Of a stretch of DNA of 64,000 bases, positions 23,671-54,455 are shown one piece after another. Numbering within the stretch: position 1 is the first letter of the stretch; the number at the start of each line of letters is the position of its first letter. This DNA is from Saksenaea vasiformis B4078 (lineage: Eukaryota; Mucoromycota; Mucoromycetes; Mucorales; Saksenaeaceae): positions 59,423 through 123,422 of the forward strand of contig JNDT01001556.1 of the NCBI GenBank assembly GCA_000697055.1, read 5' to 3'. The translations under genes were made by a program, and so were the position numbers. The notes below the pieces were generated by a model. That model saw only the letters and a program-made list of their open reading frames with translations. It had not been told where the DNA came from and made no database searches.

Positions 23671-25954
23671 ATGAACGATTCAGTGATAGAAAGCTTGGAC
23701 GGAAGTACTAACTTCAGCTCTCGTCTTCAGCTTATAGACGAAAACCAGAATTTTTCGTATGTGTGCTTATACCACAATATGAAAAACGATAACTTACCTT
23801 CACACCTAACATATTCTCATAGGAACAAGCTACCGACATACATGCATCGGTGGGGCTTGGCTGATGCTGGTGTGGAGTACAATGTAGTTGCAATAATTGG
23901 TTCTCAGAGTACCGGCAAAAGTATGTCAGCACATGTCAAAGAGAGAAGAGCATGTCCACTTGACGATTCCCATATTAGGTACTCTCCTGAACCAGCTTTT
24001 CGGAACGTCCTTCGATGTGATGCCGAGAGGGAGACGATGTCAAACAACCAAGGGCATCTGGCTGTCCCGCGATAGAGAAATGCCTGTGCTTGTGATGGAC
24101 GTCGAAGGAACAGATGGCCATGAGCATGGAGAAGACAAGGGATTTGAACGTAAATCCACACTGTTTTCCGTGGCTACAAGTGAAGTCTTGATTATGAACA
24201 TCTGGGAACAACAAATTGGCCTATATGAAGGCGCCAACTTAGGGATGCTCAAAATGGTTTTTGAGGTCAATCTCCAACTCTTCCGAAATCAGCAAGGGTG
24301 CGTGTTGCTTTCTGATGTATTTTATAAATCCATAGGAGGATGCTCATCTACCTACGATAGCTGCGGAAAAGTTCTAGTAATGGTTATTATCCGCGATTAC
24401 ACTGGTGAAACGCCTATAGAAAGTCTGGAATATACGCTTCAAGGTAGCCTTGAGGCTGTCTGGGCCGATATTCCAAAGGTGATGTTTATTTGTAATCACG
24501 CTTTTGCTCACAAACTATTTCAAAAATTTAGCCGGATGGATTTGAAGATTGTAATGTTTACGATTATTTCGGTTTTGCATACATTGGATTGCCTAACAAG
24601 ATCTTCTTCCCGGAACAATTTAATGAAAGAGTGGCAGAACTCCGCCAGAGGTACTCTGAGCTCATAATACCAGGAAAACTGACATTCAGAAAAAGATTCG
24701 GCAATCCTAGCCACGAAAACTATGTGTTCCGCCCTCAATACCATAGGCGAATCCCTGCTGATGCATATTGTAATTATGCATCAGAAATTTGGAAGCAAAT
24801 TCGGGAAAGTAAAGACCTCGATTTGCCAACGCAATTGGAGCTCGTAGCTCAACATAAATGTACTATAATCTTCAATGTAAGATACCTCTCCCAAGTACCA
24901 AGGTTATTTAGTATTCCATTTTATAGGCGGCATTAGAAGCTTTTATGGAAAAAGTTGGATTCCTAAAGTCGCTCCTTGTAGAAAAAGAGCAGATCATTTC
25001 AGATCTTGGTGAAAAAATGCGGACGTTACGGAACCAAACACTTTGTCCATTTGATCAGGATGCATCTCGGTATTACCGAACCGTATACCTCCAGAAGAGA
25101 GATGAGCTATTTATGGCAATTGACAAAGAACTTCACGTATGTTTCATTGACCAGCTCAAGAATTTGCGTAGAGTGGCGGTTACCAATTTTTATGAAAATG
25201 TAAAGGTAACAGACAGTTAATTGAGTATTCGCATCATAAATTATATATAGACTAAACAGCGAAAGACATCGTACGATGTTGATGTTGTGAAGAAAGAACT
25301 AAAGGCAGCTGATGACTATTTTGTTCATGGCGCTGAAGGCAAGATAAATTGAATATTCAACAGCAGCTAAAATCACGTATAGCTAGTATTTTACCCGAGA
25401 CTGGCTGGTCATACGGTCATGAACACATACTGCTCCGCAAACAGTTAACTGAAGTAAACGGGCAACTGCAACAGGAAGAAAACGAGAAGTTTGCGATGGA
25501 GGCGCGTCTTCGGGAAGAACTATCACAGAAGAAGAGAGAAAAACAAGAGATTATTGAAGAAGTATGTCTGAGAACGGGAAAACAACTGCGCGAACATGAA
25601 GAGGAGAAACAGCTTGCTTTGGAAGCATGTCTTCAGAAAGAACAACAGTTATGCGAAGAAAACGAGAACAAGTGTCTCATTATGGAAGCGCGTCTGAACG
25701 AAGAAAGGAGGATACATGCAGAGAAAAGAGAAGAACGATTTGCTGCAGAAGCCCGCTTGCAAGAAGCTCAACGAAGCTATGAAGCATTAGAAATGGATAT
25801 TGTGGCAGCACCTCGGAGAACAGGAAATGCTGGCTCGTGGTTTGGAGCTTTGGCTGCTACCGCTGTCACTGCAGCAGGTATCTTTACTGGGCGACCTGAA
25901 TTTATTGCCGCTGCACATGCTGCAGGCTCAGCTTTTAAGTCGTTACTCGGTTAG
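23671..25954 (+). CDS. Sey1/RHD3-derived large GTPase 1 (hydrophobic C-terminus, no CaaX)
   Basis: Exons 23671-23756, 23823-23920, 23979-24297, 24361-24478, 24532-24650, 24690-24876, 24927-25205, 25251-25338, 25383-25954; 621 aa. Sey1 hallmarks: [10 protein letters not shown]1 G-S-Q-S-T-G-K-S-T (about 54-62), G2 Q-T-T-K-G-I-W, G3 D-V-E-G-T-D-G (about 102), G4 I-I-R-D-Y-T-G, then E-I-W-K-Q-I and L-D-L-P-T-Q. One helical block (D-A-S-R-Y, then F-I-D-Q-L-K-N-L-R) follows. The remaining Sey1 stalk is missing and replaced by a Glu/Arg-rich coiled coil (about 450-570). The tail has two weak hydrophobic stretches (W-F-G-A-L-A-A-T-A-V-T-A-A-G-I) and ends F-K-S-L-L-G. The last intron (25339-25382) has a GC donor. 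Predicted GTP-dependent membrane-active dynamin-superfamily protein. Confidence 0.88.
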
Positions 25955-27777: not shown

Positions 27778-29927
27778 ATGAATAACGAAAAAGTGAATAC
27801 AAGCGGGGTCAAAAATACAAACGCGGTACCTCATCTTCAGCTTATAGATGAGCATCAGAACTTCACGTACGTATGCGTACGTCACAAATTGGGAGTCTAT
27901 CGTCCTAAATCTGTTTACTATGTTTTCTAGGAAAGTCTTACCTAAGTATATGTCTCGATGGGGTTTGATAAACGCCGGTTTTGAATACCACGTTGTTGCA
28001 ATCGTGGGCTCTCAGAGCACTGGAAAAAGTTAGTGGACGCTATCAAATCGAAAAGTCGAGAAACTGTATTGATTAGCTTATGCATAGGTACTCTCCTGAA
28101 TGAACTATTTCACACATCCTTTGACGTGATGGATAGCCGTAAGCGCAGCCAGACGACGAAGGGTATTTGGCTATCTTGTAGCAAAGAAATGCCTATCCTT
28201 GTAATGGACGTTGAGGGCTCTGATGGCCGTGAACGTGGTGATGACAAAGATTTTGAACGTAAATCCGCATTATTTTCCATGGCTACCAGCGAAGTAATCA
28301 TTTTCAACATTTGGGAGCACCAGGTTGGACTCTACGACGGCGCAAACTGGGGAATGCTCAAGACGGTGTTTGAAGTCAACCTTCAACTTTTTCATAATCC
28401 TAAAGGGTAGGAAATGATTGCAGAACAATAGCTATTTGAGGTTCAGCAAGATATGGAAAGAAAAATAGCGACTGATTTTGGTTTGCTTTCTTGTCATAGC
28501 AATCGAAAGTCCGTAGAGGGAGCCGAATCGAAAACGCTTTTGATGGTCGTTATTCGCGATCATACTGGCAAAACCCCTATGGAGAACCTGGAAGAAACTC
28601 TCCAAAAAGACTTCGAAAATATCTGGGTTCAACTTCCAAAGGTATCATTCGTTTCTTATTGTCGCTGCTTACAAAACTCCTTTTCCAACTTATTTCAGCC
28701 GAAAGAGCTTGAAGAGAGCAAAATTGAGGACTATTTTGGATTCACATACATAGGATTGCCTCATCGAGAATTTCAAACCAAAAAATTTTGCGAAGAAGTA
28801 TCAGTGCTCCGTCAAAGGTAAGCTTATACTGAGAAGAAAGCGATGCTAACGTCCACTAAGGTTCAGTAACTGTAATAATGAAAACTACGTATTCCAGCCT
28901 CAGTACCGCAAAAGTATCCCTGCTGATGGATATCATCGTTACGCATTTGATATCTGGGAGCAAATACGGAATAATGAGGATCTTGATCTGCCAGCGCAGC
29001 AAGAACTTCTAGCTCGGCATAGATGCAGCGAGATACTGAATGCAAGTTGCACACAACGTATCAGCATTGCTGACTCCGTTTTCAAATTCTATAGGCAATA
29101 CTTGGAGTTTTTGCGAAGAAAATGGAGCCCTTGAATACATCAGTGTTTGGGAAAGAGAATGTTATTCCAGAACTCGGCAAGAACATGCAAGATCTACAAA
29201 AATCGACAGTGAAATCGTTTGATGAGAGCGCATCTCGATACCACCAGGAGGTGTACAAGCAGAAGAGGCACGAACTGCTGAAAAATCTCGATGGAGCATT
29301 ACATGCATGTTTCATTGGGCAACTAAAGAATCTGCGCAAAGAAGCGATTGCAAGATTTGACGAATCGCTGAAGGTAAGCAGAACCCATTTGGCATCGATA
29401 ATTTAAGTGACGACCCACAGTTTGAACTACTAACTTCTTCATGCAATTTTGATGTTACTGCGAAAAATTGCAAGCAAAGTGCTCATGACTACTTCGAAAA
29501 GGAGGCAAAAGGAAAGTCAAAGAGAACGTGCGGCAAAATCTAAACTTTACGTACAGAAACCATTTTACCTGACAGCGACTGGTCGTATAGCCAGGAACTT
29601 AGATTACTCCAGGAGGACCTAATGAAGCATCAGGAAGGAGCCCGTAAAATCCAGGAGGAGATACAAGCGCAAGTAACAGCCAGGTTAGCAGAAGTAAAAG
29701 AGCGGCAGCAGGAAGAATTTCGTCGGAAAGAAGAAGAACAAAGACAAATACGAATGAACCTGGAACAGAGTCTGCAAGAGGAACAGAGAAAGCGACACGC
29801 TCAAGAGCTCGAAGCGCTCAATCAAAAGCACGAAGCAGATCTTGCTAGAGAACGGGAAAACTTTCAAAGACAACTTGTAGAAGCGAGATCTAGTGGTGGA
29901 GGAGGATGGCGTTGTATTATTTCTTAG
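27778..29927 (+). CDS. Sey1-derived GBP-like GTPase 2, CaaX box CIIS
   Basis: Exons 27778-27866, 27931-28028, 28088-28406, 28500-28641, 28699-28817, 28861-29041, 29095-29373, 29421-29511, 29557-29927; 562 aa. Motifs: G1 G-S-Q-S-T-G-K-S, G2 Q-T-T-K-G-I-W, G3 D-V-E-G-S-D-G, G4 V-I-R-D-H-T-G. The helical block holds A-S-R-Y-H-Q-E-V-Y and [11 protein letters not shown] Gln/Glu/Arg coiled coil (about 445-545) then a Gly-rich stretch lead to the C-terminus W-R-C-I-I-S. CIIS is a farnesylation-type CaaX box (Ser in last position). Intron 6 (29042-29094) has a GC donor. The last intron as aligned to paralogues would have a GA donor; a canonical alternative (exon end 29515, next exon start 29576) keeps frame and gives 557 aa. 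Confidence 0.87.
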
Positions 29928-30630
29928 TGGATGAGGAGCAATAAACCGTGTATTTCCCTCCATTATCGGCGGACAGTAGATTTGTTCACTGCCTTATACA
30001 AGTAACAATTTCTCCTAGCTACATAGTATAACGCAAAAATTTTGTCAAAGCATGTTTAATGATACGACTGGCTTCATGAGATATTAACCAATTTCACGCA
30101 TAGTCTTGTAGCCGGATTTGTCATTTGACAGTTTCCTGTATTCTTGCATCACAGCACATCCCCTGACAGTGATATCCATTATCCTTGTTGTAGTAGCGGA
30201 ATGGCTGTATATCATAACCATTTTTGCACTCAAAATAATAATAATGCAGAGCTTTCTTCGGTATGACCGTATGTTTTACCCAAAGCGCACAGTCTCGCTT
30301 AGAGCTAAAGGCCAATCAGATTGCTGCACTCCAACTGCCCAATACCCAATTTCGTCAGTGTGCCACATTTCGCTTGTTTGGCTTCTAAGATGAACTGTGG
30401 TGGTAACTTTAACTTTCCATCGGCATGTGCTTCATATCGTATTACATTTCGCTCCGAGTTTGTCTCTTCATGTTTCAGATTTTTGTAATTTGCCACAAAC
30501 TTTGAAATCTCGGTACCTCTTCTTGGCTTTTGTCGTACTTGTCCATTTACGGACGTACAGTAGAATAAGATAAAAGCAGGATATATTGCACCACCGTTAA
30601 AAAATTTTTTCTGTGCAATTTACAGCAATT
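29928..30630. other. Intergenic between GTPases 2 and 3
   Basis: No gene supported. Confidence 0.45.
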
Positions 30631-32837
30631 ATGGGAGAGAAAAAAATGGATGCAGCCGAAAATGGCTCAATGGTGGGTGATCGAAACGGCGACACCCAAC
30701 CCGTTCCCCGTCTTCAGCTTATAGATGAGCACCAGAACTTCACGTATTTATACTTGTACTAGTGTCAGGAGAACATGATTCACCATAAATCTGTTTTTTA
30801 CTTTTCTAGAGAGGATCTACCAACGTATATGAATATATGGAGCCTAGCTGATGCTGGACTGGAATACAATGTGGTTGCAATCATGGGCTCCCAAAGTACA
30901 GGAAAGAGTAAGCCAATAGAATAGATCGCAGTAAAATATATACACATTACGGTTTCCACTTAGGCACTCTTCTGAATCAACTTTTTGGAACATCCTTTGA
31001 CGTAATGGTCAAAAATATGCGGCGTCAGACCACAAAAGGAATATGGATATCTCGTGGTAAAGGGATGAATGTGCTCGTAATGGATGTCGAGGGAACAGAT
31101 GGTCACGAGCGCGGTAAGGACAAGGAGTTTGAACGTAAATCTACGCTTTTTTCCATGGCTACAAGCGAGGTTATGATTTTGAACGTCTGGGAGAATCAGA
31201 TCGGTCTCTATGACGGCGCCAACTTGGGCATGCTTAGGACAGTCTTTGAGGTCAACCTCCAGCTGTTCCAAAACAAGAAGGGGTAAATAGAGCAACTAAA
31301 AATGTGCAAGAGGAAGAATCTGGTTGATATTTGTTCATTTGTTTGATGTAGCAAAGAGAAACTTCACCTAATGATCATGATCCGTGACTACACTGGCGAA
31401 ACTCCCATAGAGAGCTTACAAGAAACACTTCAAAGCGATTTTCAGAATATCTGGGCCGAACTTCCAAAGGTATCCAATGCTTACAATCCTACTTTGCTTA
31501 CAGCATTTGTCAAATATATTATAGCCTGATGGTTTAGGAGACTGCAATATATATGATTACTTTGATTTTACTTACGTTGGTTTACCCCACAAGGTTTTCT
31601 TTCCGGAGCTGTTTAGCGAAAAAGTGGCAGAACTCCGCCATTGGTAATCCCGATACTGTAAAGACGATACTCATACGTAGGAATAGGTTTAACGATCCCA
31701 ATAGTCCTGACTATGTATTCCGACCATGCTATCGAAAACGTATCCCTGCTGATGGGTACTATAACTACGCATCTGACATCTGGGATCAAATTCGGCGGAA
31801 CAAAGACCTCGATCTACCTACACAGCACGAACTCTTAGCTCAGCATAGATGCAACGAAATCTTAAATGTAAAGTTCTCTAGGTATGACAGCGCAGTTCAT
31901 TTTCTGCTTTATTCTATAGGCGGTATTTGAATCATTTGCTCAGCAAATCGAACCTGTGAAGACTTCAATAGTTCGTGAGGAGCAGATTGACGCCGATCTT
32001 GCCAAAGTGATGGAAGATCTCCGACAGCAGGCGGTCCAGTCATTTAACAAGGATGCATCTAGATATCAAGAAGACATATATGAAGAGAAAAGAAAAGAGC
32101 TCCTTGTAAAACTGAACAAAGAGTTGCATGAATGCTTTATCGGTCAGTTGAAGAATTTCCGCAGGGACGTAGTTGACGACTTCAACGAGAGTTTGAGGGT
32201 AATAAGTGGACAATTTGCAATGATATCTTACGATTGCGCATAGAGTGAGCTGTTAAAATCTTCCTATGATTTGGTGGAGATACTTCAAACGTGCTTCAAG
32301 AATGCCAATGATAATTTCGTGAAGCATGCAGAAGGCAAGTTAAAAGAACGTATGTAACGAGTCTAAGCTTTAAGTTTAGCCATACTCCTATCTGAAACTG
32401 ATTGGTCCTTCAGTCATGAACATAACTTACTGCAAGAAGAACTAATTAGTCAGCGACGCAAATGGGAGCAAGAAGAGCAAGAGCGACGTGCTAGGGAAGA
32501 GCACCTTAGGAAAGAGCAGGAAGAGCGCGAAAAAGAGGAGCTCAGAATCAAAGAGCGTATACAAGCTGCTGTAGAAGAAAATGCAGCAGCCGTAAGACAG
32601 AGACTTGAAGTTGAAGCACGTTTGAAACAAGAGGAACTGCGGCGCGAACAGGAAGAGCAAAGGCGGATGGACTTGGAGGAACGTCTACAGGAGGAGCAGA
32701 AAGCCCGATACGCTGAAGGAATAGAAGCCCTTAGACAAAGACATCTAGCAGAACTTGCTGAGGAACGTGTGAGACATGAGAGACTACTTGCACAAGGGAG
32801 AATGAGAGATCATTCAGGTGGTTGTATCGTTTCATAA
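30631..32837 (+). CDS. Sey1-derived GBP-like GTPase 3, CaaX box CIVS
   Basis: Exons 30631-30743, 30810-30907, 30964-31282, 31352-31469, 31525-31643, 31681-31867, 31920-32198, 32244-32334, 32380-32837; 593 aa. Intact G1 [10 protein letters not shown]2 Q-T-T-K-G-I-W, G3 D-V-E-G-T-D-G, G4 M-I-R-D-Y-T-G. The helical block ends [12 protein letters not shown]. The tail has the longest uninterrupted coiled coil of the CaaX members (about 445-575), very rich in Glu, Arg and Gln. The protein ends G-G-C-I-V-S, a farnesylation-type CaaX. The last intron (32335-32379) has a GCAAGT donor. Exon 5 joins exon 6 as H-W-N-R-F where paralogues have an Arg, a minor divergence. No transmembrane segment is visible anywhere in the protein. 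Confidence 0.9.
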
Positions 32838-35151
32838 ATATTTTAACTACGGTATCACACTGCTTCCGGCAACTGCTCTAGTGATCGTGTCATGTTTATG
32901 TCATTAAAAAGTGCATACCATCATAGTTGACATATTCTCATCATACGCTGGCCGTCAATACTACATACGTATATATGCCTGCACATGCTTCTATTAGACC
33001 TATTAGTATAATTGATTGGTAGAAACGTCCTGGCGTGGGCGTATAAATTAGCTGCTTTCATCCAGGATATGTGTTCTGGCAATGTGCAAAGAAACGCTGG
33101 GCTTTCCGACTTTATGAGGACCGTTTCCGATGGTAGTGTCGGTCATTGAGAAAGTCAAAGCAGTGAAGTCAGTTGAGACTCAATTGAAAACTTCGTTCTT
33201 CTGAGAAAAGAACGGGACTTATATTACTAAGGGTTCCTTTATGTAAATGAATTCAGCGATGCAATGCCTATTTTACCGACTAGGCAGAGATTCGTATGAC
33301 GAAGAGGCACAGACACAACTACCTAAGTAGAGCGAAGTTTAAAGTCCCATATCAGTATCGCGGCCATAACCGGGGCTTTTACACTATCCTAAGGCAGACT
33401 CAAATGTCTATTAGAAGTGCACTCTGTGATTTTTGTATCATGCCTTCATGCAAGTCTCCTGGAATAGAGTCATACGTACAACAACATTACAATTCGTACA
33501 AGAAGACATAGCGAAGCCACTTCAATCTTCATAAATTGCCTTTGTTCTTTTGACCGCTGGATATAACTGGATGTCAGTTATCTGAATGTATTTAGTGGAT
33601 TTTCTTGAATCTGCCGTGAAACTAGGCTTTTATTCATCAACTCAAAGCGTGTTTTACTTGTGCATTTTGGTTCAGCGTACTTATCTGCGTAGAAATTCTT
33701 AATTCTTACTATAGCAAAAGAGAATGCATAAATCTTAAAAACATTGTAAGTGCTTCCTATTCATGGTTTTGACATTTTCAGGTTCGTACATCACCTTTGG
33801 CGAACGTATTCATTGTGTCTGGGTCACTTGCAGCTGACATCGGAAACGACAAATTTGAACTAGTTCTTGAGAAAATGGTTCTTCGTTTTTTCGAGATATA
33901 TCGAGTTCTTTGTCCTGTAGCGTACATATATATATATATATTTATGGTGTACGTTCAGAAATTTTATAAATACGTAATCGTTTCTGATTTAAAAGATGAC
34001 AAATAAATATGCAATTTCTGAGCAACTCGCAGTGTTCCAAGAAATACAGTTCTTTGAAATGATTGCTGCCGTAAAGTAGTACAAACGTTTCTAAAGAAAA
34101 TACGCTCATTTTTATTTAGACAAGGGCTTTTGAAAGAGGTGCGTATGATGCGCGAACACACAGCGTCCGCTCAACATTTTGGACAATCGGGAAAGCACGA
34201 TCATCCTCTTACATACATATAAGGATGAGTGCTTTCAAATGGTGCATCAACCAAACGACGCTACTGCTGCCATTCACTACAAAAACAGCCTACAATGCCT
34301 GGCGACGGGCGAACAAGCTGCTTCCTCCCCTTCGGCCCCACCATACGACACATGTTGTGTATGCGACAAGTACCTGCCGAAGACGGCCTTTGCGCCGGTA
34401 ACCACCAAAGTTAGCACGTGGAATACTCATTCATTCGTAGTCACAATGGCGGTACATGCCGCAAGGTGAACGGGCGTGCCTGACCTGCTGGGCAGAAGAA
34501 GAGGATAACCACAAAAAAGCCAGATAAAGACTTTCTTTGGCTGGGATCTGAAAGACTAAATTTGCCAATGTGGAATTCTTTGAGTATCTGACATTATCTA
34601 CGTAGTTCCGAGAGTAGCTCGCTATCTTCTGTGGGAAAGTGTACGCGGCTAAGTTTGTAAATGCATATCAAAGTTTTGGCGAGGTACATAATCTCTCTTC
34701 CGTTCTCCGTGGGGCAAAGTTTAATCTTAACATGGATATGGTGACAACAGAAGAATTGTCCGGTTTTTGTACATCGAGTACCAATAAGCTTCCAAAAAAT
34801 ACATAATCTTGTTTGATCGATTTGTGTTAGTGGCGGTGATCTAGCATCAAGTATTTGTTTTCAAGTTTCATCGTGGAATTACATTCTAAGTTCCCTAGCT
34901 TCTAAGATTGATCATCGTGCCACAATCCAATCTTCGGCTTTGCACGCTTGGCGCGCTGGTCTTTAACGGCCTTAATCGTGTGACCTGGAACAGAATATTA
35001 ATTTGCTGTTATTTTCTTGCCTTCGGTTTCATATTTAGGGTACCATATACTCTCTTCGGCTTGAACTCGCTTTTATCCACAGCAAGGTATGATGACTGGT
35101 ACAAAACATTGTATCGTGGTACTGAATATATGCTGTTGCGGATAGTCATAT
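32838..35151. other. Intergenic between GTPases 3 and 4
   Basis: Longest gap in the array. Holds a possible zinc-finger remnant (34179-34540) and a (TA)n run near 33927-33940. Short sequence TAGCTTCTAAGAT at 34896-34908 recurs elsewhere in the locus. Confidence 0.45.
34179..34540 (+). pseudogene. Possible remnant of a Cys-rich zinc-finger gene (Stc1-like)
   Basis: A plus-strand frame contains C-C-V-C-D-K-Y-L-P-K-T-A-F-A, which resembles the first half of Stc1-type zinc domains (C-x2-C followed by L-P-x-x-x-F). The expected second half (H-N-G-G-T-C-R-K, then L-T-C-W-A) appears shortly after but in other frames. No ATG with good context is present. Most simply a decayed fragment; it could also be an unresolved short-intron gene. 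Confidence 0.25.
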
Positions 35152-37157
35152 ATGAAGGTTTATAGCATTGCCGACTACAGTCTGTGCCTCCAACTTATAG
35201 ATGAACATCAAGAGCTTACGTACGTAATTTAAGCTGAAGGATGTGAACTGATTTTTTTATCAATACACTGGTTGGTCTTCTACAGAGAAGAGCTACCTAC
35301 ATATATGAACCGATGGGGTTTAGATAACGTTAGGCTTGCATACCATGTGGTTTCAATTATGGGGTCACAAAGCACGGGTAAAAGTATGTAGATTGCAACA
35401 ATTGAAACCAGTATGGACATTCATCTAATATGCACTCTAGGTACCCTTCTGAATCAACTCTTTGGGACTTCGTTCGAGGTGATGGGAAAAGGGAAGCGAG
35501 GTCAGACAACGAAGGGTATCTGGTTGTCCCGCGCTAGAGATATGCCTGTGCTTGTAATGGATGTCGAAGGTTCGGACGGTCACGAACGTGGCGATGACAA
35601 AGAATTTGAACGCAAATCGACGCTGTTCTCCATGGCTGTGAGCGAGGTTGTTATCTTGAACATGTCAGAAATGCAAGTCGGACTCTACGCAGGCGCGAAC
35701 TTGGGCATGCTCAAAATGGTTTTTGAAGTCAATCTCAAGCTTTTCTCCAGTAGAAAAGGGTTGGTAAAGATTATGGATAATAGTAGTCATACGCAACGGA
35801 GTAAAAGTAGTAGCTAATACTGTCCGCTTATTCGATCTAGCAAAGAGAAGACTCTTTTAATGCTTGTTATACGAGACTACTCTGGTGTAACTCCTCTGGA
35901 AAGTCTGAAAGAGACACTTAGGACTGACTTCAACAAGATTTGGGCAGATATTAGAAAAGTATGTTGTATTTCTGATACAGATTTCTAACGGGTCTCCGTC
36001 CTTATTCCAGCCAGAAGGATTTCAGGAGTGCGATATTCACGACTATTTCGAATTCACGTTCCTTGGGTTGCCTCACAAACATTTCGCTGAGGAGCAATTT
36101 AACACAGAGGTAGCGAGGCTCCGCCATAGGTAATTGCAATGCTATAAAGAAGAAGACACTGATAGGCTGCCGAAGGTTCAATGATACCAGCGACGATGAC
36201 TATGTATTTCAGCCGCAGTACCATAAATGCATTCCTTCTGATGGATACTATGAATACACGTCCAATATTTGGGACCAAATCCGGAGAAACAAGGATCTCG
36301 ATTTACCTGCCCAACAAGAACTCCTAGCGCGACACAGATGCAGCGAGATCTTACAGGTAAGATATCCAAACCGCGCCTGATAAACTCATTTTGCATTTCG
36401 CAGACTGTATCCCACAACTTTATGGAAGGAGTCGAGCCTATGAAAGTAGCAATTATTACAAAAGAAAAAGTCGTTGATGATCTCGGCGAAGCAATGAGGC
36501 GACTATGGAAAGAGGCTGTCGAGACATTTGATCAGGAAGCATCCTCGTATCAACTAAACGTTTACCACGAGAAGCAAAGCGAGCTTCTGGCAAAATTGAA
36601 CAGAGAATTGAATGAATGCTTCATTGGTCAACTGAAGAACATGCGCAGAAGAACAATTGCAGAATTTATAGACAATTTGAGGGTAGTTTATAGATTATTC
36701 AGCATCGATGTACGTACTGAAAACTTATTTTAGATGGAACTCGTGAAGTCGTCCAGCGATATCGCGGAAGTCTCCGAAAAGTGCTCAGAAACTGCTAAAA
36801 ACAGCTTTGTGGACTACGCAAAAAGTAAATTGATGGAATTTGACTGGAGAAACCTAATTTTTGCCTCTAGGTATCATTCTATCCGAAGCCAAAGATTGGT
36901 CGTATGACGACGAGCAGAAGTTGCTACAACAAGAATTAACCAAAGAAAGTCGGAAGTGCGCGCACGAGGAAATGCTGATACGAAAGCGAATAGAAGAGGC
37001 TATTGATACTCACATGAAGAAGGTAGAAGCCCAGCTTAGATCTGAGTTAATGGACGAGAAAACGTATAAAGATATGCTAGCTAAAGCACGCGAGGAAATC
37101 GAGAGAGAAATCGAAGAAGAAAGATCTAAGAATCCCCGTAAATGTGTTATTTTGTAG
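35152..37157 (+). CDS. Sey1-derived GBP-like GTPase 4, CaaX box CVIL
   Basis: Exons 35152-35219, 35286-35383, 35441-35759, 35841-35958, 36011-36129, 36176-36356, 36404-36682, 36734-36824, 36871-37157; 519 aa, the shortest member. G1 [10 protein letters not shown]2 Q-T-T-K-G-I-W, G3 D-V-E-G-S-D-G, G4 V-I-R-D-Y-S-G are intact. The helical block ends [12 protein letters not shown]. The tail is a short charged helix (about 440-510) ending P-R-K-C-V-I-L. Leu in the last position predicts geranylgeranylation, unlike the Ser-ending relatives, and upstream K-N-P-R-K gives a small basic patch. The first exon is shorter than in paralogues and begins at an ATG just before the conserved L-Q-L-I-D-E-H. 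The last intron has a normal GT donor (gtaaat). Confidence 0.9.
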
Positions 37158-38369
37158 TTGTTAAAGGAAGAAGATCACACAGTGTCGAAAAACCCATTTA
37201 TGTGATCTCCAATAAACATTTTCTATTCCTCAAAGGTCTTAGGTCTGCGTGCTGTGGCGCTTTCTCGAATAATTATCTGTAGAAAGTCCAGGCGTGTTGG
37301 GATTGTGGAACAACCCGCGAAGCATTGCGTTTTGTAAAACATTTTCTGAGAATCCACAAAAACGGTCACCATGTAACTGCTCGGTTCAACTTGCTGTGTC
37401 CTCAAAAAGCTTATGTAAATTGAGTCGTAGTTCTTACTACATTGTATTCCGTGCAAGCTGTACTTTTCTTTCCGTTCACAGGCCATATAAATAACAGCAA
37501 TATATGTATACAGATATGTTACAGTTGATTATTGAGATTGCAGAGAAAAACTTTTATAACAAGTGACATTAACACATCCCTAAACACACTTTGAAAACAG
37601 TGGAAGCCGTGAGGCATCGAATATGAAAGGATAACCAGTAAGGGCTTTGTGTATTTGTAAAGATTAGACTTTCTAGGCTTAGGACCGGATGCATCGTCAA
37701 AGCCAAGTAATAAGAAACCAACGAATAAAAAACGCAATATATCTTCTCAGGGAGTCACTCCGGTATTTCATATGAGGAGGACATTGTTTTGATCATATAC
37801 AAACTTAAACAATACCGGTGTGAAACGTACTTATCAAGATTCAGCCCAAGATGCGTAGTGTCCTCTTTACACTTTGTGCACAGCACAACATACATTCTCC
37901 AGTTCAAGTTTACTTGTACAGCGCATTGCTCCGCCGAAGGCATGAAAACATATCACGCTCTCCATTTCACTGTGCCAAGAGAATATATGATTATTATGTT
38001 CTCTGAGATTAAACGCGATGTGCAACTCCAACTTTATCGCTTGTGTGTTCGATGACAGTTCGAAATTTAATTACTTGGAATCTAAGATTTTTTCGTGGTG
38101 TCACGGTCCAACTCTCGCTCACATGCCTTGTATGTTATTATTCAGCTTATTTGAGAACTTCTATAATAAAATATTAAGGCATCATCACCCTTTTCTACTC
38201 TCTCTTCCAAAGAAAATTAAACTTCATTTTGAAATATGACTTTGGTAATTTTTTTACACCAGTCTGTTACCAAAATTCCCAGCCCTAGGCTCAGATGTCT
38301 TCCAAGTGGACTGCTGTGCTAATCCGACTAATCCAACTTTCGATATGATAGACTACGGAAAACGATACT
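37158..38369. other. Intergenic between GTPases 4 and 5
   Basis: No gene supported. GTGGTGTCAC at 38095-38104 resembles elements upstream of GTPases 2 and 6. Confidence 0.45.
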
Positions 38370-41249
38370 ATGACTGAGGTCAAAAACTATGCCTTAGTTG
38401 AGAGTTGCCACAAACTTTCAGGCCCTAGTGCTCGTCTCGAACTTATAAATGACAATCAAAAACCTATGTATAGGTTTCTGTGTTTGGGATCATGTCTAAC
38501 GCACTCACCTTATTTCTATAGCGAAGACATACCTACGTTCACTCCTGAAGGCGATAACACGAGTGAGGTCACAAACGTTACCACAGGAGAAAGTTATCAC
38601 AAAGGTTCGGACCTTAACTCTGGCCTCCGGTTCATAGATAAGAATCAGAAAACTAGGTACGCGTTTCTGTGCTAGAAATACTGATAACGCGTTTAATTTG
38701 TTTCTATAGCGAAGACGTATCTATGATCACTCCGGAAGGCGATACCACGAGTGAGGTCACAAATGTTACCATAGGAGAGAGTTATCACAAAAGTTCAGAA
38801 CCTGACTCTGGGCTCCAGCTAGTAGATGAGAATCAGAAACTTGCGTAAGCGTTTCTGTATTTGGAATCATGACTAATATGTTCACCTTGTTTCTATAGCG
38901 AAGACGTATCTATGTTCACTACGGAAACCCATACTACGAGTGCGGTCACGAATTGCGTCTTAAAGGATGATTGCCACAAAATTTCAGAATTTAACGCACG
39001 CCTCCAGCTTATAGATGAGAATCAAGACCTTACGTACGTATTTCTGTGCTAGAAACCATGACAAACACGTCCATCTTATTTCTATAGCAAAAACTTGGCC
39101 ATGTATATGAATCAATGGGGTTTAACTAATGTTGGGGATGCATACCATGTTGTTTCAATTATGGGTTCTCAAAGCTCCGGTAAAAGTGAGTAAATGACAA
39201 CTGTTAAAGCAAGTATAATATCGACTAATGGTCTACTTTAGGTACTCTTTTAAATCACCTTTTTGGGACATCATTCGAGGTGATGGAAAGAGGGAAGCGA
39301 GGTCAGACAACAAAGGGTATCTGGTTGTCCCGTGGTAGGGATATGCCTGTGCTTGTAATGGATGTCGAAGGGTCGGATGGTCACGAACGCGGCGATGACA
39401 AAGAGTTTGAACGCAAGTCTACGCTGTTTTCCATGACTATAAGCGAAGTTGTAATTTTGAACATGTCGGAAATGCAAGTAGGACTCTATGAGGGTGCAAA
39501 CTTGGGCATGCTCAGAATGGTCTTTGAAGTCAATCTCCAGTTATACCAAATCCGGAAACGGTGAGTAACTGTCAAAGCTCAATCATTTGAGCTCCTGTGA
39601 AGAAAGGGTACAGACGATAATGTTCGGTGTTTACCTTTATGTTCATAGTGCCGAAAAGGTTCTGTTAGTGATTGTTATACGAGACTACACTGGCAGCGTA
39701 CCCCTGGAGAGCCTAAAAGGCGTACTTCAAGACGGTTTTAATAAGATTTGGGCTGAACTTCTAAAGGTATATCTGTTTGTAATCGCCATTCTACTAAATT
39801 TTCTGGATTTATTCCAGCCAAAAGAACTTAACCAATGCAACATCGATGACTACTTCGACTTTATGTACTTCAGTTTACCTCACAAACACCTTGCTGAGCA
39901 GCAATTTAATGCGGAAGTTGCGGAGTTGCGAAATAGGTAACTTCAGTTCTGCAAGAGGAAGAGCTAAGAGGGAGCAAAAAGGTTCAGCAACCGCAATCAT
40001 GCAGACTACATATTCCATCCTCAGTACCATAAGGGTGTTCCTGCTTCTGAATATCATAACTATGTATCTGATATGTGGAATCAAATTCAAACGAGTCAAA
40101 ATCATCTTCGGTTAGCGCAACAGGAACTTGTAGCTCGACATAAATGTGACGAAATTATGAAAGTAAGTTGCTTTTGCCGTGCTACCATTGTTTAGTATTT
40201 TATTTTTTAGAGCATACTTCAGAGATTTAATCAACGGATCGCGCCTTTGGAGATGTTGATTTTCAGAAAAGAGAAAGTCGTCTCTCGTCTTCGCAAAAAT
40301 ACCGAAGGGCTACGGGATGAAGCAATTCAATCGTTTGACGAGGATGCTTCTCAATATCAAGAAGACATATACAAAGAAAAGAAAGGCGAGCTTGTTTCAT
40401 TCCTTGACAAAGAATTGCATAAGTACTTTATTGGTCAGCTGAAAAATTTGCGTCGGAAGGCGGTTACAAGGTTCACGAGAGATGCAAAGGTAGCAAATGA
40501 CGTCTACTTCACGAATCTGATGAGATTCCTATTTAGATTGAGCTCGAAGTTCCTTCACACAATTCTGCTGCCGCCATGGATGAACTGCGAATAGAGGCGA
40601 TGGAATATTTTACAATTGGTGCCGAAGGCAAGTCAATGAAAGTATACTACAGAAACTAAATTTACGTGCAGCAAGCGCGATATCTGGACGTGACTGGTCG
40701 TACAGTCAGCAGTACGACTTATTACAAAACGAATTATATGAGGAACAGAAGAAATGCCAGGAATATCAACAGGCAAAGCGTGATCATATTATGACGGCCC
40801 TACAAGGAGATCATAATGAAAAAGCGTCTTTTCAAATGGCTCTACAGAAACCCGACGAATTTCCAGTAAACTCGCGGAGAGATGCTCTTGAAGCGGCACA
40901 AAAGAAGAAAAAGGGCGTCAAACTGTCTCATAATGAAGAAGATCAGGTATACTGTCGTTTTGCAGCAAGTACACAGAACAGTGCTCTGCCAGCTCCGCAA
41001 GGAAGACATAACAATAACCGTCCTCATAAGAGGAGTCAACAAGAACACTGCGAATACACATCAGGACTACATAACAATAGTTGGGAAGTTATGAGAGAAC
41101 GGCAGAACAATGCTATGAATTCACACCAACCACCGAGCCGATCCAATACACAGATGAACCAGCATATCGGAACGAATCAGGAACGTCAGGGAAACAAAAA
41201 GTATATCACAGAGATTGGAAAATATCTAACGAAGACATTTCTTGGCTGA
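38370..41249 (+). CDS. Sey1-derived large GTPase 5, tandemly repeated N-terminal exon, no CaaX
   Basis: Exons 38370-38467, 38522-38656, 38710-38844, 38899-39033, 39088-39185, 39242-39560, 39649-39766, 39818-39936, 39982-40162, 40211-40489, 40537-40627, 40672-41249; 761 aa. Exons 2-4 are each exactly 135 nt and repeat the unit that holds the paralogues' L-Q-L-I-D-E motif, so the N-terminus is a 45-residue repeat (S-E-V-T-N-V-T, Y-H-K-S-S). G1 is G-S-Q-S-S-G-K-S; G2 T-T-K-G-I-W, G3 D-V-E-G-S-D-G, G4 V-I-R-D-Y-T-G are intact. The helical block ends F-I-G-Q-L-K-N. The tail is long and polar, rich in Asn, Gln, His and Lys, not clearly coiled coil, and ends K-T-F-L-G, recalling GTPase 1. Last intron (40628-40671) has a GC donor. 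Confidence 0.85.
38468..39087 (+). repeat. Tandem exon-intron duplication, period 188-189 bp
   Basis: Three consecutive exon-plus-intron units start at 38522, 38710 and 38899. Introns are also alike (each ends in TTTCTATAG). A fourth, partial unit is exon 1 itself. Every unit keeps reading frame and the same splice phase. Confidence 0.9.
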
Positions 41250-42588
41250 TCCAATCAATGTTAAAGTTCCTTTTTCAATAATGCAGAGGGGAATAACAAG
41301 AAGAGTATGTAATAAAGTGAAGGATGGCTTTAGTTTGCTTTGCGCTGAAGAGACACTTATACGCACCAATGCTATTTGGAGAATTGCACTAATGATGAAA
41401 GAATAGATATGAGTCAATAGCCGAGTACCCCACTATGATGTTCATGCTGTCTTTACCGCTGAATATTGTGACCTTCTAAAAGGATGACACCACGACTTCG
41501 CGGATTACTCATTCCAGGTTTGGATGGAGCGCATTTTGGGAAGACAATACATGTTTGGATATACGTTGTGATTTGTCGCGAGACAAACTACAGGTTAGTA
41601 TCCTGCTATGCCTGTTCTGTGGCTCCCTTCCGGCTTTGACTGCATTTTTTGTTTCCTAACTGGGCAAACGTCTTGGTCGACTTTCTGTCTTGGTTTTGAT
41701 ACGTAACCGCTTCCATGAAACAAGGACGCATCAAAGAAAGAAAAAAAGCGACACGGGGCAAAGTAGTTATTCTGTTGTCATACAGCTAGCAGCAAATGAA
41801 GCTTATTGGTGTAAACGAGAAACTACAGGTATAACTGAGTTAAACTAAGTTCCCACTCCTGATATCTAGAGGACACGATCCGGGGTAATGTTTCTAAATA
41901 GTTCTTCTGAAGAATAAAGCTCACGCTTGCGTACTATTGTATTACGTGACTAATGCGATAACATAGGGATACTAACAATTAGTCAGTTCTGCGCTGGAAA
42001 CTCTGTTGCATAGGCTAATGGTTATATCAATGAGACCACTATCTACGTTGTTTGGCTGATGCAGTTTCAAGAACCTGAAACATCATCTTGTGCGAAAGAG
42101 CGCATGGGCGAAGTGATACATGTGTAGCGAGGGTCAGGCGAAGCGTATCATCTCTGGATCCAATGTGCTGCAAGACCTAACCTTAATGACAGCGCTATTG
42201 AGAACACGTACCCTTTGTTTGGCCATTTCGAATTATAAGTGGGCCTACAGTTAACTGTTCGGTTTCTAAGGCTAATTGTGGTGCCACAGTTCCCAGTACT
42301 TAGCTTCTAACTTCTAAGATCACGGAGCCAACATTAAACTTTCTACATGTGTGTTTGGCTATCACGTTGCAAGACGTTGTGGGAAAAGTTACAGGTTAAC
42401 GCTTTGGTATGTCCGTTTCGTGTCCTTTCTTGATTTTTGCGGCCTTCTTCGCTTTCTAACTTTACAAACCTATTGACTAGCGTTCTGTCTATTTCTGTCG
42501 CATCACTGCTCCCAGGAAATCAAAAGGCTGAAAAAAAGGCTGATACATCCGAAGCTCACTCCTTGTTTTCATAACAGCTAGTAGCTAA
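41250..42588. other. Intergenic between GTPases 5 and 6
   Basis: No gene supported. GTGGTGCCAC at 42278-42287 and TAGCTTCTAA at 42301-42310 recur at other places in this locus. Confidence 0.45.
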
Positions 42589-44600
42589 ATGGAGGGTGCT
42601 AGCCGAAGTAACCATCCAAACAACCCTGTAGCAGAGAATGGGGCTAAAAAAAGTGAATCTCGTCTTCAGCTTGTAGATGAGTATCAGAACTTCACGTAGG
42701 ACCGCTGATATCTGATATCAAAGCTGATTATTTATAAATATATTTTATATGGGCTTGTAGCAAAGATCTACCGGCGTACATGGCTCAGTGGGGACTAACT
42801 GATATTGGACTTACGTGTCATGTTGTTACGATTATGGGCTCTCAGAGTGGTGGTAAAAGTAAGTCAGCAGCGCAAGATGAAAACAGAACATATACTTTCA
42901 AATATGTATTTTAGGTACCCTTCTTAATCATCTTTTCGGGACGTCTTTCGATGTGATGTCTAGCGCCAAACGGTGTCAGACTACAAGGGGCATTTGGATA
43001 TCTCGTTCTAAAGGAAGTAATATACTCGTGGTGGACGTGGAAGGAACGGATGGTCATGAAAAGGCTGATGATAAGGACTTTGAACGTAAATCTACACTGT
43101 TCTCGATGGCTACAAGCGAAGTAATGATTTTGAACATGTTTGAGCACCAGCTCGGTCTGTACGACGGTGCCAACTTTGGAATGCTTAGGACAATCTTTGA
43201 AGTGAACCTTCAACTCTTCCAACATAAAAATAAGTAAGTAATGTTGTCGAGATGAAGGTCCTCCACGATCGATACAGGGCATAAAGGAAGATATAACTGG
43301 TTTTCATATAAGGAACAAAAAAACCCTCCTGATGATTGTCATTCGCGATCATGCTGGTGAAACTCCCGTGGAAAGTCTGAAAAAGACACTTCTAACTAGT
43401 TTTGAGAATATTTGGGCCAAGATTCCGAAGGTATTATTTACTTATGCTCACAGCAACACCTTTACATACAACTAACTTCTTCTAGGCCGCCGAACTTAAA
43501 GATTGTGCTATCTATGATTATTTCGACTTTACTTGCGTGGGTCTGCCTCACAAAATCTTTTTCCCCGAGCAATTTGACCAAAAAATGGCAGAACTCCGTC
43601 ATAGGTAGCTCTACTGATACAGAGGATGAGGACACTGACATCTAGCAAAAGGTTTAAAAATCCTAGTAATACAGACTACGTATTCAAGAGCCAGTATTGT
43701 AAGGAAATCCCTGTGGATGGGTACTGTAAATATGCATCTGAAATTTGGGATCAAATTCGGAGAAATAAGGATCTTGATATACCAGCTCAGCAGGAACGTT
43801 TAGCTCTGTATAGGTGTACTGAAATCTTAAATGTAAGGTTTCCAAGGTATAACGCTATAATTCTGAGTTTTTTCTGAGTAGACAGTATTTGAAGACTTCA
43901 TGCAGCAAGTTCAACCCATGAAGGCATCAATATTTCGCGAAGAGCACAGCACACTCAATCTCGGCAAAGATATGGAAGTACTGCGGAGCAACACGATTCA
44001 GTCATTTGACAAGGAGGCATCTCACTATCACCAGCGCGTTTATCACGAGAAAAGAAATGAATTACTTGTAAAAGTGAACGATGAATTACATGAATGCTTC
44101 ATTGGTCAACTGAAAAACTTGCGAAAAGAGATCGTTGGAGATTTCTATGACGTCTTGAAGGTAAGACTTGACTCTATTAGTTTCGGCATTCTAAATATGT
44201 ATCTAGACTGAAGCACGATACTCCCAAAGGTTAACTGTAGCTTTAGATAATTGCTGGAAGAATGCAAATGGATACTTTCTAATCTGCGCAGAAGGCAAGT
44301 AAACTAAGCGTGCAGTAGAGAATCTAAATTTTGAGCCAAGAAATCCTTTTAAGCAAAACCAATTGGTCATACAGCCGGGAACACGACTTACTCGAAACAG
44401 AATTAACTAAAGAGCAAAAGAAACATGACGACTTGCAAGAGCGTATAAAAGCACAAATGCGCGATCAAAGAGAACAAACAAGAATGAATCTAAATGAACA
44501 ACTGCGGGAGGCAGAGAGAGCACTATACGCAAAACTTGCCAAGGAACGTTTGGAATACGAGAGAAAGAACGCCAGAGAGGATAATTGTAACATCTCTTAG
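42589..44600 (+). CDS. Sey1-derived GBP-like GTPase 6, CaaX box CNIS
   Basis: Exons 42589-42695, 42761-42858, 42915-43233, 43313-43430, 43486-43604, 43652-43832, 43882-44160, 44207-44294, 44341-44600; 522 aa. The P-loop is G-S-Q-S-G-G-K-S-T: the paralogues' Thr/Ser before the Gly-Lys is Gly. G2 reads T-T-R-G-I-W (Arg for Lys), G3 D-V-E-G-T-D-G, G4 V-I-R-D-H-A-G. The catalytic Lys, Ser/Thr and G3 Asp remain, so activity is plausible but may be altered. The helical block ends [14 protein letters not shown] short charged coiled coil (about 440-515) ends E-D-N-C-N-I-S, a farnesylation-type CaaX. The last intron (44295-44340) has a GCAAGT donor. Confidence 0.9.
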
Positions 44601-46611: not shown

Positions 46612-48605
46612 TTAAGCTGCCGGAGCACAGTAACCAGCGACCCATCCAACCGGGTGGGAAACAGAGTCAAAGCCGACTTCGTCTGTTGTTGCGGCATCTT
46701 CAAGGCAATATCGCAACAATAACTGCCGCATACGTTCTTGTGAGTGTCGGCAGCCTGCCTACAAGACGGAAATTACGTTATCATCGAGGTGAGCAAAAAT
46801 AAATAGAAGTTACTTACTGATGCCGCGCGTTCGTACCAAGCCAGGGCTTCTTGGAAATCTACCTGGACTCCCATTCCCTTTTCGTAGCACATGGCCAAAT
46901 GATACTGTGCTGACACCTGACCTTGCAATGCAGCCTGACGAAAGTATTTGACAGCCAAAGCCGGGTTTTGACGAACACCTATGCCAGCTTGCAGATGGAG
47001 ACCGAGCTTATCTTGTGCGCGTGGATGGTTTTGCTTTGCTGCTTTGCGATACAGTGCGACAGCTTTGCTCTGATTTGCTTCGACACCAATGCCATTTGCG
47101 AAACAGTAGCCGAGATTACATTGGGCCCAAGGATTGTTTTGGTTAGCAGCTTTCATGTACCAGTACACTGCTTGTGTCGTATCCTTAGGTAATCCAAGTC
47201 CTTCTTCGTAACAGAAACCAAGGGAATTTTGAGCAAGTGGATTACCCTGAAGCGCCGATCGACGGAACCAGCGGACAGCCTCCTGTTCATTTTTTTCGAC
47301 ACCAACGCCGTTGCGATAACAGAAACCTAAGGAGAGCTGGGCGGGAGCGTGATTCTGATCCGCACTGAGCAGATACCATCGGACAGCCTCTCGGGGGTTC
47401 ACTGGTACACCGACCCCGTTCTGGAAACAGTAACCGAGCGAGTGGTAGGCAAATATATTGCCTTGTTCTGCTGATTTCTTGTACCACCGGACAGCCGCGG
47501 CTGGGTCTTTTTCAACACCGATACCATTCTGATAGCAAAAACCCAAGTTATGCTGTGCCCGTGCATGACCTTGATGGGCGGCCTGTGCGTACCAATGGGC
47601 ACCAAGCACGCTGTCTTTGGGTACTCCTATGCCATTCTGGTAACAGTAGCCAAGGTTGCATTGTGCCCAAGGGTACCCTTGTTCAGCCGACCGGCGGTAC
47701 CACATGGCTGCCATTGTTTTGTCTTGTCTGACACCTATACCATCTTCGTAGCAGTAACCTAACGAGTTTTGCGCGAAAGCGTTGTCTAACTCCGCAGCTA
47801 GTCGGTACCACTTGACCGCTTCCACCACGTCCTTCGGCACGCCCATTCCGTCCTCGTAGCAATAACCAATGTTGTAAATTGCCACGGTGTCTCCTTGGGA
47901 TGCAGCACGTCGATACCATACCATGGCTTGCTGTTCATCCTTGGGGACACCAAGACCTTCGCCATAGCAGTAACCTAGAATACCCTGACCTCTGGCGTTT
48001 CCCTGCTCTGCGCTTCGTTTGTACCACTCTACCGCTTTTGCCTCGTTTTTTGGCACAACAACCCCGTCATGATAGCACACCCCCAAACAATATTGACTTG
48101 CAGCACATTTGTACTCGGATGCGGTCCGTTCAATCCATGCAATAGACGTAAGTTGCGATTCCCACTGTTCTGCTTCGGTCCGATCCATAGGCACCCCGGG
48201 TCTACCATATTTGCGCAAAAAAGCGAGACGAGCGATCCCGAGCATGCTTCTTTCGTCTGTGTCGCCTGCCAAAGTGGCCATGTGATAGAGTTGTTCAGCT
48301 CGTTTACAGTCACTCACGACGCCAAGACCAAACTCGTAACAAAATCCAAGAACGGCCTGTGCTCCATGATGACCGAGTTTTGACGATTGCTGTAATAAAG
48401 AGACGGCCAACGGTTGATCCACCGGTCGATCGCGTCGTCCAAATAAATAATCTTCTGCCTGTTCCAATAGTTCGTTCGCTTTCATTGCCGAGGATTTGTT
48501 GGTGTAATTATAATTGTTATTATTATTATTATTTCGTTTGCTGATTTTGACCAACATGCGTCGTGAAACTTGTACAAACTGTGTAAATGAAGAGGGATAA
48601 GACAT
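46612..48605 (-). CDS. Sel1-repeat (SLR/HCP-like) protein
   Basis: Exons 48605-46818 and 46758-46612 give 644 aa. About a dozen consecutive canonical 36-residue Sel1 repeats occupy roughly residues 50-590, with the pattern A-V-x-W-Y-x-x-A-A-x-Q-G-x-x-x-A-Q-x-x-L-G-Y-C-Y and G-I-G-V-x-K-D. The N-terminus has an Asn/Tyr-rich run encoded by an ATT/AAT microsatellite, so its length is probably variable. The short second exon adds a non-repeat C-terminal tail. Sel1 repeat proteins act as scaffolds, as in chitin synthase activation (Chs4/Skt5) or ER-associated degradation (Hrd3); nothing here selects one role, and no signal peptide or membrane span is evident. Unlike the 33-residue repeats of the MACPF genes, these are the standard type and not recently amplified. 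Confidence 0.92.
48510..48535. repeat. (ATT)n microsatellite within Sel1 gene N-terminus
   Basis: Encodes the Asn run on the minus strand. Confidence 0.8.
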
Positions 48606-49484
48606 AGCAGAAAAGAAAAAAGGAAAAAGAAAAAGATTAAAAGAAATCAGGAAAATTGGTCTCTTTTTTAAGTGGTGATATTTATAAGTCTATAATACAA
48701 GAGAGAAGGCATCTTCCATGCAATCTGGTCCAATGTCTCCTTATTTATTTATCTTTCCTTTTCCCCCAAAAAGACGACATGCGTGGCGGTGGCTAAATTC
48801 TAACTTTTTTCACCACATCAACATTATCAATTCCGGCGTATTTGTCACTCCCCTCTTTTTCCCAATTTAATTCACTGAAGCTTTAGACCAATGACGATAG
48901 TGATGCTAGTTACTGTGCAACTTGGAATTGTGCCGCTCTTGTTTTCATTTACTACCACTACTACTACTACTACTACTACTTGATACATTATGATTGTTTG
49001 AATTTCATGACTTGTTTGCAAAAAGTTTCATCCGTCAACTGTTGTCAACATGTCATACAAAACATACGACGCACATACAAAAGTATAGATTACACATGTG
49101 TACACTTGTTCCAAACACATAATCATGTTATCCTTTTTCTTGTATGCTTTCTTTAAGGGGGTTCATTCCAATCTATCAACGTCAAGTGCAGATCTTGTAT
49201 GTACGGTTCACAACAAATAAATGAGTGTGCATTGTAGTTTAGGCACACTTTTGCTACGGTATTGTCTAAATCCGCGTTTATTTAAAATTATCGGGATCGC
49301 CGGAAAGTGTTTCCGAGCTTTCCGTTGTGTCGGAGCTTTGCGCAAGAAACAGAAGAAAAACAAAGAATCAAATGATGGTCCATGGGATCAACGCAAACAA
49401 AAGGTAAACTCGGGTAGCATCCGAAAATTGTGTCCGTAATAACAACAATAAAACGCATGCTAACCCACGCGAAAGAAAACAGAA
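48606..49484. other. Intergenic between Sel1 gene and ABC transporter 2
   Basis: Contains a (CTA)n microsatellite at about 48955-48981. No gene supported. Confidence 0.5.

Positions 49485-54455
<4,971 letters not shown>

Follow-up and report, generated by a model that had tools for sequence, protein, structure and literature searches.

Sey1 and RHD3 are the ER-fusion GTPases of fungi and plants (PF05879, PF20428), and atlastin, likewise an ER-fusion GTPase, is built along the same general lines. The guanylate-binding proteins (GBPs) of animals are antimicrobial and induced by infection. Among those of vertebrates, as summarised in PMC10859415, human GBP1, GBP2 and GBP5 carry a CaaX box, the seven human GBPs lie in one cluster, and rabbit GBP1 ends in CVIS. 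The GBP of Dictyostelium, in contrast, is described in PMC12040241 as having a C-terminal transmembrane segment and no CaaX box. Titles and abstract openings returned by a literature search describe no fungal proteins of the kind reported here. We analysed a window of 64,000 nucleotides (the whole stretch of DNA, from contig JNDT01001556.1) together with the rest of the genome assembly, and conclude that duplicated copies of Sey1 have probably lost the transmembrane hairpin to become peripheral GBP-like GTPases, eight of which end in a CaaX box.

Results

The window contains a cluster of six Sey1-derived GTPase genes on the forward strand, for which we built gene models with inferred start codons. 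All six spliced models have nine exons, and from a conserved W-S-Y/F type motif onwards the last exon remains open through to the stop. GTPase 1 (W1, 23671..25954; 621 aa, from sequence and a spliced model) has a long tail leading to a hydrophobic end segment, which is alignable to the tail of the Apophysomyces ossiformis protein P0041. The spliced model of GTPase 2 (W2, 27778..29927; 561 aa) ends in a charged tail and CIIS (29913..29924; stop 29925-29927); the donor of its last intron is ambiguous, which leaves the last exon (29576-29927) unaffected. Charged tails likewise precede CIVS (32823..32834; stop 32835-32837) in GTPase 3 (W3, 30631..32837; 593 aa, hand and spliced models), CVIL (37143..37154; stop 37155-37157) in GTPase 4 (W4, 35152..37157; 519 aa, spliced model) and CNIS (44586..44597; stop 44598-44600) in GTPase 6 (W6, 42589..44600; 524 aa, spliced model). 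As a general rule, a CaaX box with Leu as X, such as CVIL, is of the geranylgeranyl type. The last intron is of the GC-AG type in W3 and W6. GTPase 5 (W5, 38370..41249) was modelled by splicing from 38912, but since a 188-189 nt exon unit is repeated in tandem at 38497-39061 and the joined exons are in frame, its start is probably at 38370. The four boxes lie immediately before the stops and after the charged tails, exactly as an earlier note on this DNA had reported, and no box is present in GTPases 1 and 5, as it implied. Charged residues make up 40-50% of the tails of GTPases 2, 3, 4 and 6, and the heptad signal is weak in several tails.

The six paralogues of that note belong to a wider family. 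Grouping matches into loci, we found 19 Sey1/RHD3-type (PF05879) loci in the genome, namely one canonical Sey1 and 18 shorter paralogues, seven of them with hydrophobic or amphipathic ends; the loci include tandem clusters. The canonical Sey1, on contig C538, retains the long stalk and transmembrane hairpin that the note had ascribed to such proteins, and shows identities of 86.8% and 85.5% with two Sey1 proteins of Apophysomyces, the genus to which the genome most likely belongs. Three of the 18 paralogues look damaged or doubtful (C441c, C548 and C546): C548 has a stop within the G domain, and C546 differs from W4 by 5 nt in length at the start of exon 6. No such paralogues were recognised outside Apophysomyces among the best 120 matches of each of two homologue searches. 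The core is 52-76% identical in eight paralogue pairs, with a core dN/dS of 0.12-0.37 in six of the eight and saturated dS in two; for W4 against C546, the tail has a dN/dS of 0.45, compared with 0.24 for the core.

The earlier note had derived these proteins from atlastin, whereas RHD3/Sey1 proved by far the best family match: the RHD3_GTPase domain was recognised in W3, W4 and W6, the three window proteins scanned, at E values of 7.7e-96 to 1e-100 (320.6-336.6 bits). Nucleotide motifs G1-G3 are present at 18 of the 19 loci; in C602f, the G4 pattern match was spurious, and IRDYTG is present in its spliced model. The GBP N-terminal model PF02263 gave 21.4-28.6 bits for W3, W4 and W6, above the cut-off of 21.1, which the canonical protein P0001 also passes (25.1 bits), and the GBP C-terminal helical family was absent at E 0.1 from W3, W4, W6, P0038 and P0041. 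Six to eight of canonical Sey1 introns 1-8 recur, equal in place and phase, in each of the 17 paralogue models compared (C441c was left out), with all eight in W1, W3, W4, W5 and W6 and seven in W2. Because eight intron positions are shared, the paralogues derive from Sey1; on the evidence of sequence and gene structure, they are Sey1 descendants and not members of the GBP family.

The distal part of the protein has been lost. Of the 419 positions of Sey1_3HB, only 2-161, 2-180 and 2-229 were covered in W3, W4 and W6 (58-61 bits), as against a score of 339.6 bits in P0001, and the match of W3 to the solved Sey1 structure 5ca8 ends at residue 422 of 692, whereas that of P0001 reaches 688. The C-terminal part of the canonical protein gave an alignment score of 1204 at C538 versus 29-51 at the 18 paralogues, where neither the hairpin nor the canonical stalk was found in the models, over 1.0-3.0 kb starting from the last exon, or within the loci that were fetched. 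That a charged tail and CaaX box replace the distal stalk and hairpin of Sey1 is thus as the earlier note had it, and so is the layout like that of vertebrate GBPs, with a large GTPase, a helical region and CaaX.

This argument would fail if the CaaX stops were an annotation artefact, spliced out and followed by transmembrane exons, the outcome that the note itself had named as refuting. In several models a GC-AG intron adjoins the last exon, which can mislead naive gene modelling, and the downstream score slightly exceeded the best of six letter-shuffles of the same sequence at eight of the 18 paralogues (C441d, C546, C602d, C602e, W1, W3, W4 and W5), most of all at C441d (51 versus 38). However, no downstream score came near the canonical value, and tblastn returned a single weak match, a 47-aa stretch downstream of C441d (E 0.008), which may be due to chance or a remnant of the canonical C-terminus and does not belong to a CaaX gene. 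Missed transmembrane exons were ruled out by these scores and the tblastn result, and no transmembrane-coding sequence lies past the stops in the DNA searched. With the independently annotated CaaX end of P0038 and the silent codon variation described below also against it, such an artefact is extremely improbable.

Eight of the 18 paralogues genome-wide, four of them among the six in the window cluster, end in a CaaX box (Cys at -4, an aliphatic residue at -2 and a permitted X at the extreme C-terminus), and ten do not carry it. Across the family, tails end in CaaX boxes with Ser, Gln or Leu, or in hydrophobic or amphipathic segments. The pattern C.[VILM][SAMQCLFTN] stands at the end of 15 of 727 stop-to-stop ORFs of at least 60 aa in the window and loci L009-L017, some of which overlap, so that a few ORFs are counted twice; eight of the 15 are the CaaX paralogues, and the remaining ORFs give 7/719. 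The earlier note had called four independent ends of this kind unlikely by chance, but the ends are not independent, because the genes are paralogues. Among the fetched public homologues, one of 129, A. ossiformis P0038, ends in CaaX (CVIS, the ending shared by C546), and the box is therefore present in a relative from another species, if not necessarily in a strict orthologue. This too favours the earlier note, which had named absence of the CaaX from orthologues as refuting. A homologue search with tails only returned just P0038 itself, a search that is weak for charged tails and missed the related P0041.

When the nine CaaX proteins were compared, the 20 residues upstream of the box were 10% identical without gaps (36 pairs), whereas the last four residues were 67% identical, a value partly built in by selection since the proteins had been picked for ending in CaaX. 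The weight of this comparison lies only in the divergence of the tails and the silent codon changes. In the eight genes, the Cys codon of the box is always TGT, while Ile is encoded by ATT or ATC, and Ser by TCT, TCA, TCG, AGT or AGC. The box has been retained on tails that are otherwise nearly unrecognisable, and its codons vary silently, a pattern that fits selection on the end of the protein.

In a 39-row tree (C441c and C548 omitted; 20 of 127 public presumed-canonical proteins included, one of which, P0048, has no obvious hydrophobic segment and is unsurely labelled canonical), the CaaX label changes six times, and at least four or five of the changes are forced by well-supported branches. 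A 40-row tree with C548 again gave six changes, four of them forced. Grouping the CaaX rows as a single clade was rejected (p-AU 1.65e-63, 39 rows). Given the seven siblings with hydrophobic or amphipathic ends, the tails have therefore been switched repeatedly. The paralogues and Apophysomyces Sey1 share the same side of a branch (97/88 with 40 rows, 96/87 with 39); an alternative tree in which the paralogues stand outside the Sey1 of all Mucorales was not rejected (p-AU 0.158).

Matches to prenylation enzymes were found in the genome, with the prenyltransferase beta family on three contigs, alpha repeats on three and ICMT on two. These are family matches only, because PF00432 also covers terpene cyclases and the ICMT search matches bacterial controls too. 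A search of the assembly, which may have been filtered, detected no bacterial SSU rRNA, and a co-assembled endosymbiont was rejected on this result. Sel1/TPR genes neighbour the cluster; as Sel1 repeats are very common across the genome (3284 first-look candidates), the idea of a linked system was dropped.

Discussion

The CaaX paralogues are most likely peripheral, prenyl-anchored large GTPases of GBP-like architecture, as far as their sequences can tell. We propose that Sey1 was duplicated in the Apophysomyces lineage, giving 18 further loci in this genome, and that in the copies the RHD3-type G domain and the start of the helical bundle were kept, whereas the distal stalk and hairpin disappeared and new, fast-changing and mostly charged tails were acquired. 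The tail ends in a CaaX box in eight of the 18, and these boxes are most likely prenylated. Such proteins would dimerise through the G domain in a GTP-driven manner, self-associate through the tail, and reach a membrane by their lipid to coat or tether it, as vertebrate GBPs do, while their hydrophobic-tailed siblings would take another route to membranes.

What these GTPases do is a separate matter, for which a role in defence is put forward as a hypothesis. They may be cell-autonomous defence GTPases, analogous to GBPs in function and layout, that coat intracellular bacteria or other organisms invading the hyphae. Tandem clusters, repeated tail switching, damaged copies and fast tails are common in conflict genes, and intracellular Mycetohabitans are described from Apophysomyces strains BC1015 and BC1034 (PMC13367373); however, gene-family turnover has other causes and the assembly yielded no bacterial SSU rRNA, possibly through filtering, so that we regard this function as somewhat doubtful. 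Housekeeping neofunctionalisation, by which the paralogues would be retargeted tethers or fusogens on the Golgi, vacuole or plasma membrane, is a tentative possibility: the variety of ends, with Ser, Gln and Leu CaaX boxes beside hydrophobic and amphipathic ones, suggests different membranes, but the copy number is high for such a role, and among the best 120 matches of each search Apophysomyces alone showed recognisable paralogues of this kind.

The paralogues could also regulate canonical Sey1, pairing with it through their G domains to tune ER fusion while held by a lipid or hydrophobic tail. Sey1-type GTPases act as dimers, and the G domains are intact, which would suit this role; nevertheless, 18 regulators are many for one protein, and a core identity of only 52-76% in eight paralogue pairs speaks against it, so that we think it rather improbable. 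Whichever function applies, the preferred reading of the proteins themselves is that of Sey1 copies turned into peripheral GTPases. Its boldest extension, that GBPs were re-invented from an ER fusogen as an immune or symbiont-control system of clustered, prenyl-anchored and fast-evolving GTPases that coat Mycetohabitans-like bacteria, is unlikely on the present sequences. If the preferred reading is right, the GBP layout of large GTPase, helical tail and lipid anchor would have arisen twice within the dynamin superfamily, from two different branches. The family would also provide a natural series in which a single GTPase core is combined with CaaX, hydrophobic or transmembrane anchors, as well as a candidate, open to testing, for symbiont control or cell-autonomous defence within fungal hyphae.

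Compared with known systems, the paralogues share with Sey1/RHD3 the G domain and its motifs, the beginning of the three-helix-bundle domain, and six to eight of introns 1-8 in both position and phase, but differ in lacking the distal stalk and hairpin, in their new tails (CaaX, hydrophobic or other) and in their multicopy clusters. Atlastin is alike in general design as an ER-fusion GTPase but is not the closest relative, since no other family matches nearly as well as RHD3/Sey1 and the best match among solved structures is Sey1. Like the paralogues, the Dictyostelium GBP is a large GTPase of this superfamily from outside the animals; it has been studied with intracellular bacteria. With vertebrate GBP1, GBP2 and GBP5, the paralogues have in common a large GTPase, a helical region and CaaX boxes in a subset of a cluster, down to the CVIS reported for rabbit GBP1, which also ends C546 and P0038; unlike in the GBPs, the G domain is of the RHD3 type, at 320.6-336.6 bits against 21.4-28.6 for the GBP N-terminal model.

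Gene structure of the Sey1-type GTPase family

We searched the assembly (38.7 Mb, 666 contigs) with PF05879 and obtained 63 exon matches, which by our own grouping form 19 loci, one of them a canonical Sey1 gene on contig C538 and the others shorter paralogues: six in the window (W1–W6), six on contig C602, four on C441 and one each on C546 and C548. The canonical protein is identical to Sey1 of Apophysomyces sp. BC1034 at 662 of 763 residues (86.8%) and to that of A. ossiformis at 652 of 763 (85.5%), which makes an Apophysomyces species the most likely source of the DNA.

Gene models for all 19 loci were made with a purpose-written spliced protein-to-DNA aligner, and those of all six window GTPases contain nine exons. 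The canonical gene has 13 introns. Comparison with 17 paralogue models showed that every one of them shares six to eight of introns 1–8, in the same phase and within four alignment columns. Past intron 8, the canonical gene continues with five more introns through the stalk and hairpin, while the paralogues pass from this position directly into a new tail, followed by the stop. A GC-AG intron, which gene predictors can overlook, lies just 5' of the last exon in the models of W1, W3, W5, W6, C441d and C548. W5 also has extra 5' exon-like units derived from a 188–189-nt tandem repeat (window 38497–39061), the copies of which have splice signals.

The earlier note had proposed that the Sey1 hairpin was replaced, and the canonical stalk and hairpin were not found downstream at the paralogue loci: the spliced alignment of the C-terminal 291 residues scored 1204 at C538 and 29–51 at the 18 paralogue loci (DNA scanned from the last exon: 3 kb in the window, 1.0–2.3 kb elsewhere). 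The means of six letter-shuffles at these loci were 30–38.5, and the score exceeded the best shuffle at eight loci, never by more than 13. A tblastn search with the canonical C-terminal part yielded C538 and a single weak match near C441d (E 0.008).

CaaX ends and other tails

The CIIS, CIVS, CVIL and CNIS termini noticed earlier in GTPases 2, 3, 4 and 6 were all present in the spliced models, and four further paralogues carry such an end: C602b and C602d (both CIIS), C602f (CVIQ) and C546 (CVIS). CaaX ends thus occur in 8 of the 18 paralogues. By our own sorting, seven have hydrophobic or amphipathic ends (W1, C441a, C441b, C441d, C602a, C602c and C548), and W5 and C602e have neither type. 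C441c is a degraded copy, the G domain of C548 is interrupted by a stop, and C546 differs in length by 5 nt from W4, which its model bridges with a shifted intron; without these three, the count is 7 of 15. The G1–G3 motifs are present at all loci except C441c.

The short Trp/Cys-rich amphipathic tails of C602a (locus L010) and C602c (L011) are mutually alignable (z 13.8) and are possibly membrane-inserting or palmitoylated. The tails of C441a (L013) and C602b (L010) include in-frame tandem repeats (unit lengths, 87 nt and 57 nt), suggesting that coiled-coil-like tails may lengthen by tandem duplication. The final ~70 residues of C441b (L014) are mixed hydrophobic, unlike the other tails.

A strict CaaX-type pattern was met at 15 of 727 ORF ends in the window and loci L009–L017, eight of the 15 belonging to these paralogues. 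The eight ends are not eight independent events, since the genes share descent, and the independence claimed previously does not hold. Retention of the box on diverging tails is a better argument than this count. Among the nine CaaX proteins (eight paralogues and the annotated A. ossiformis protein P0038; 36 pairs), the 20 residues N-terminal to the box share 10% ungapped identity, with 40% in the highest pair, and the last four residues share 67%, a value partly built in by picking rows that have the box. The Cys codon is TGT in all eight genes, Ile is encoded by ATT or ATC, and Ser by TCT, TCA, TCG, AGT or AGC.

Kinship, selection and public homologues

The core dN/dS was 0.12–0.37 in six of eight paralogue pairs, with dS saturated in two, and the tail dN exceeded the core dN in all eight, with tail dS saturated in three. 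One branch splits off the canonical-labelled proteins (support 100/99 with 40 rows and 100/100 with 39), and the paralogues adjoin the Apophysomyces Sey1 proteins (97/88 and 96/87, respectively), although with a p-AU of 0.158 the alternative to this placement was not rejected. On the tree, the CaaX label has to change six times, and well-supported branches force four (40 rows) or five (39 rows) changes, which would be tail gains, losses or exchanges.

The box also occurs in a relative from another species: the separately annotated P0038 of A. ossiformis ends in CVIS. A second A. ossiformis protein, P0041, has a hydrophobic tail alignable with that of W1 (z 7.0). Both are probably encoded on one contig, because the longest contig listed for each is 227,130 bases. 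These two were the paralogues recognised among the best 120 of 2581 and the best 120 of 1600 proteins passing the threshold, and further distant or unannotated relatives are possible beyond the best 120 matches of each search. Among the 129 proteins fetched, P0048, P0051 (record marked partial) and P0055 have no obvious hydrophobic segment and no CaaX end, and may be truncated models.

Genomic neighbourhood

Sel1/TPR-repeat stretches at window 1–4698 and 60566–64000 form an inverted pair, ~84% identical, on both sides of the cluster, and a 638-aa Sel1-repeat protein ORF (46776–48689, minus strand) adjoins it; Sel1 repeats are very common across this genome. Two genes read from sequence as ABC transporter-like, at 15082–19894 (plus strand) and 49655–54482 (minus strand), are 75% identical between 19187–19894 and 49655–50373; a Pfam scan of one ORF of this pair (15082–16197) gave no match.

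Putative function and comparison with guanylate-binding proteins

Multiple atlastin/Sey1 duplications have been reported, with no comparable CaaX-tailed family described in the available part of that source (PMC9804665), and no fungal proteins of this kind were found described in the literature, as judged mostly by titles and abstract starts, with subscription papers mostly outside the scope. Apophysomyces BC1015 and BC1034 contain Mycetohabitans, according to the accessible part of PMC13367373; this report and the family turnover lead us to hypothesise that the paralogues might be defence GTPases. No bacterial SSU rRNA was found in this assembly.

The genome has matches to the prenyltransferase beta, prenyltransferase alpha and ICMT families. 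A CaaX box with Ser or Gln as X suggests farnesylation, and one with Leu geranylgeranylation. These enzyme matches and this rule, along with the comparison with guanylate-binding proteins (GBPs), favour the paralogues as peripheral, putatively lipid-anchored GTPases, whose assembly on a membrane would depend on GTP. In the accessible portions of the sources, human GBP1, 2 and 5, from a cluster of seven GBPs, have a CaaX box, and rabbit GBP1 ends in CVIS (PMC10859415), identical to the ends of C546 and P0038; the GBP of Dictyostelium lacks a CaaX box and contains a transmembrane segment (PMC12040241).
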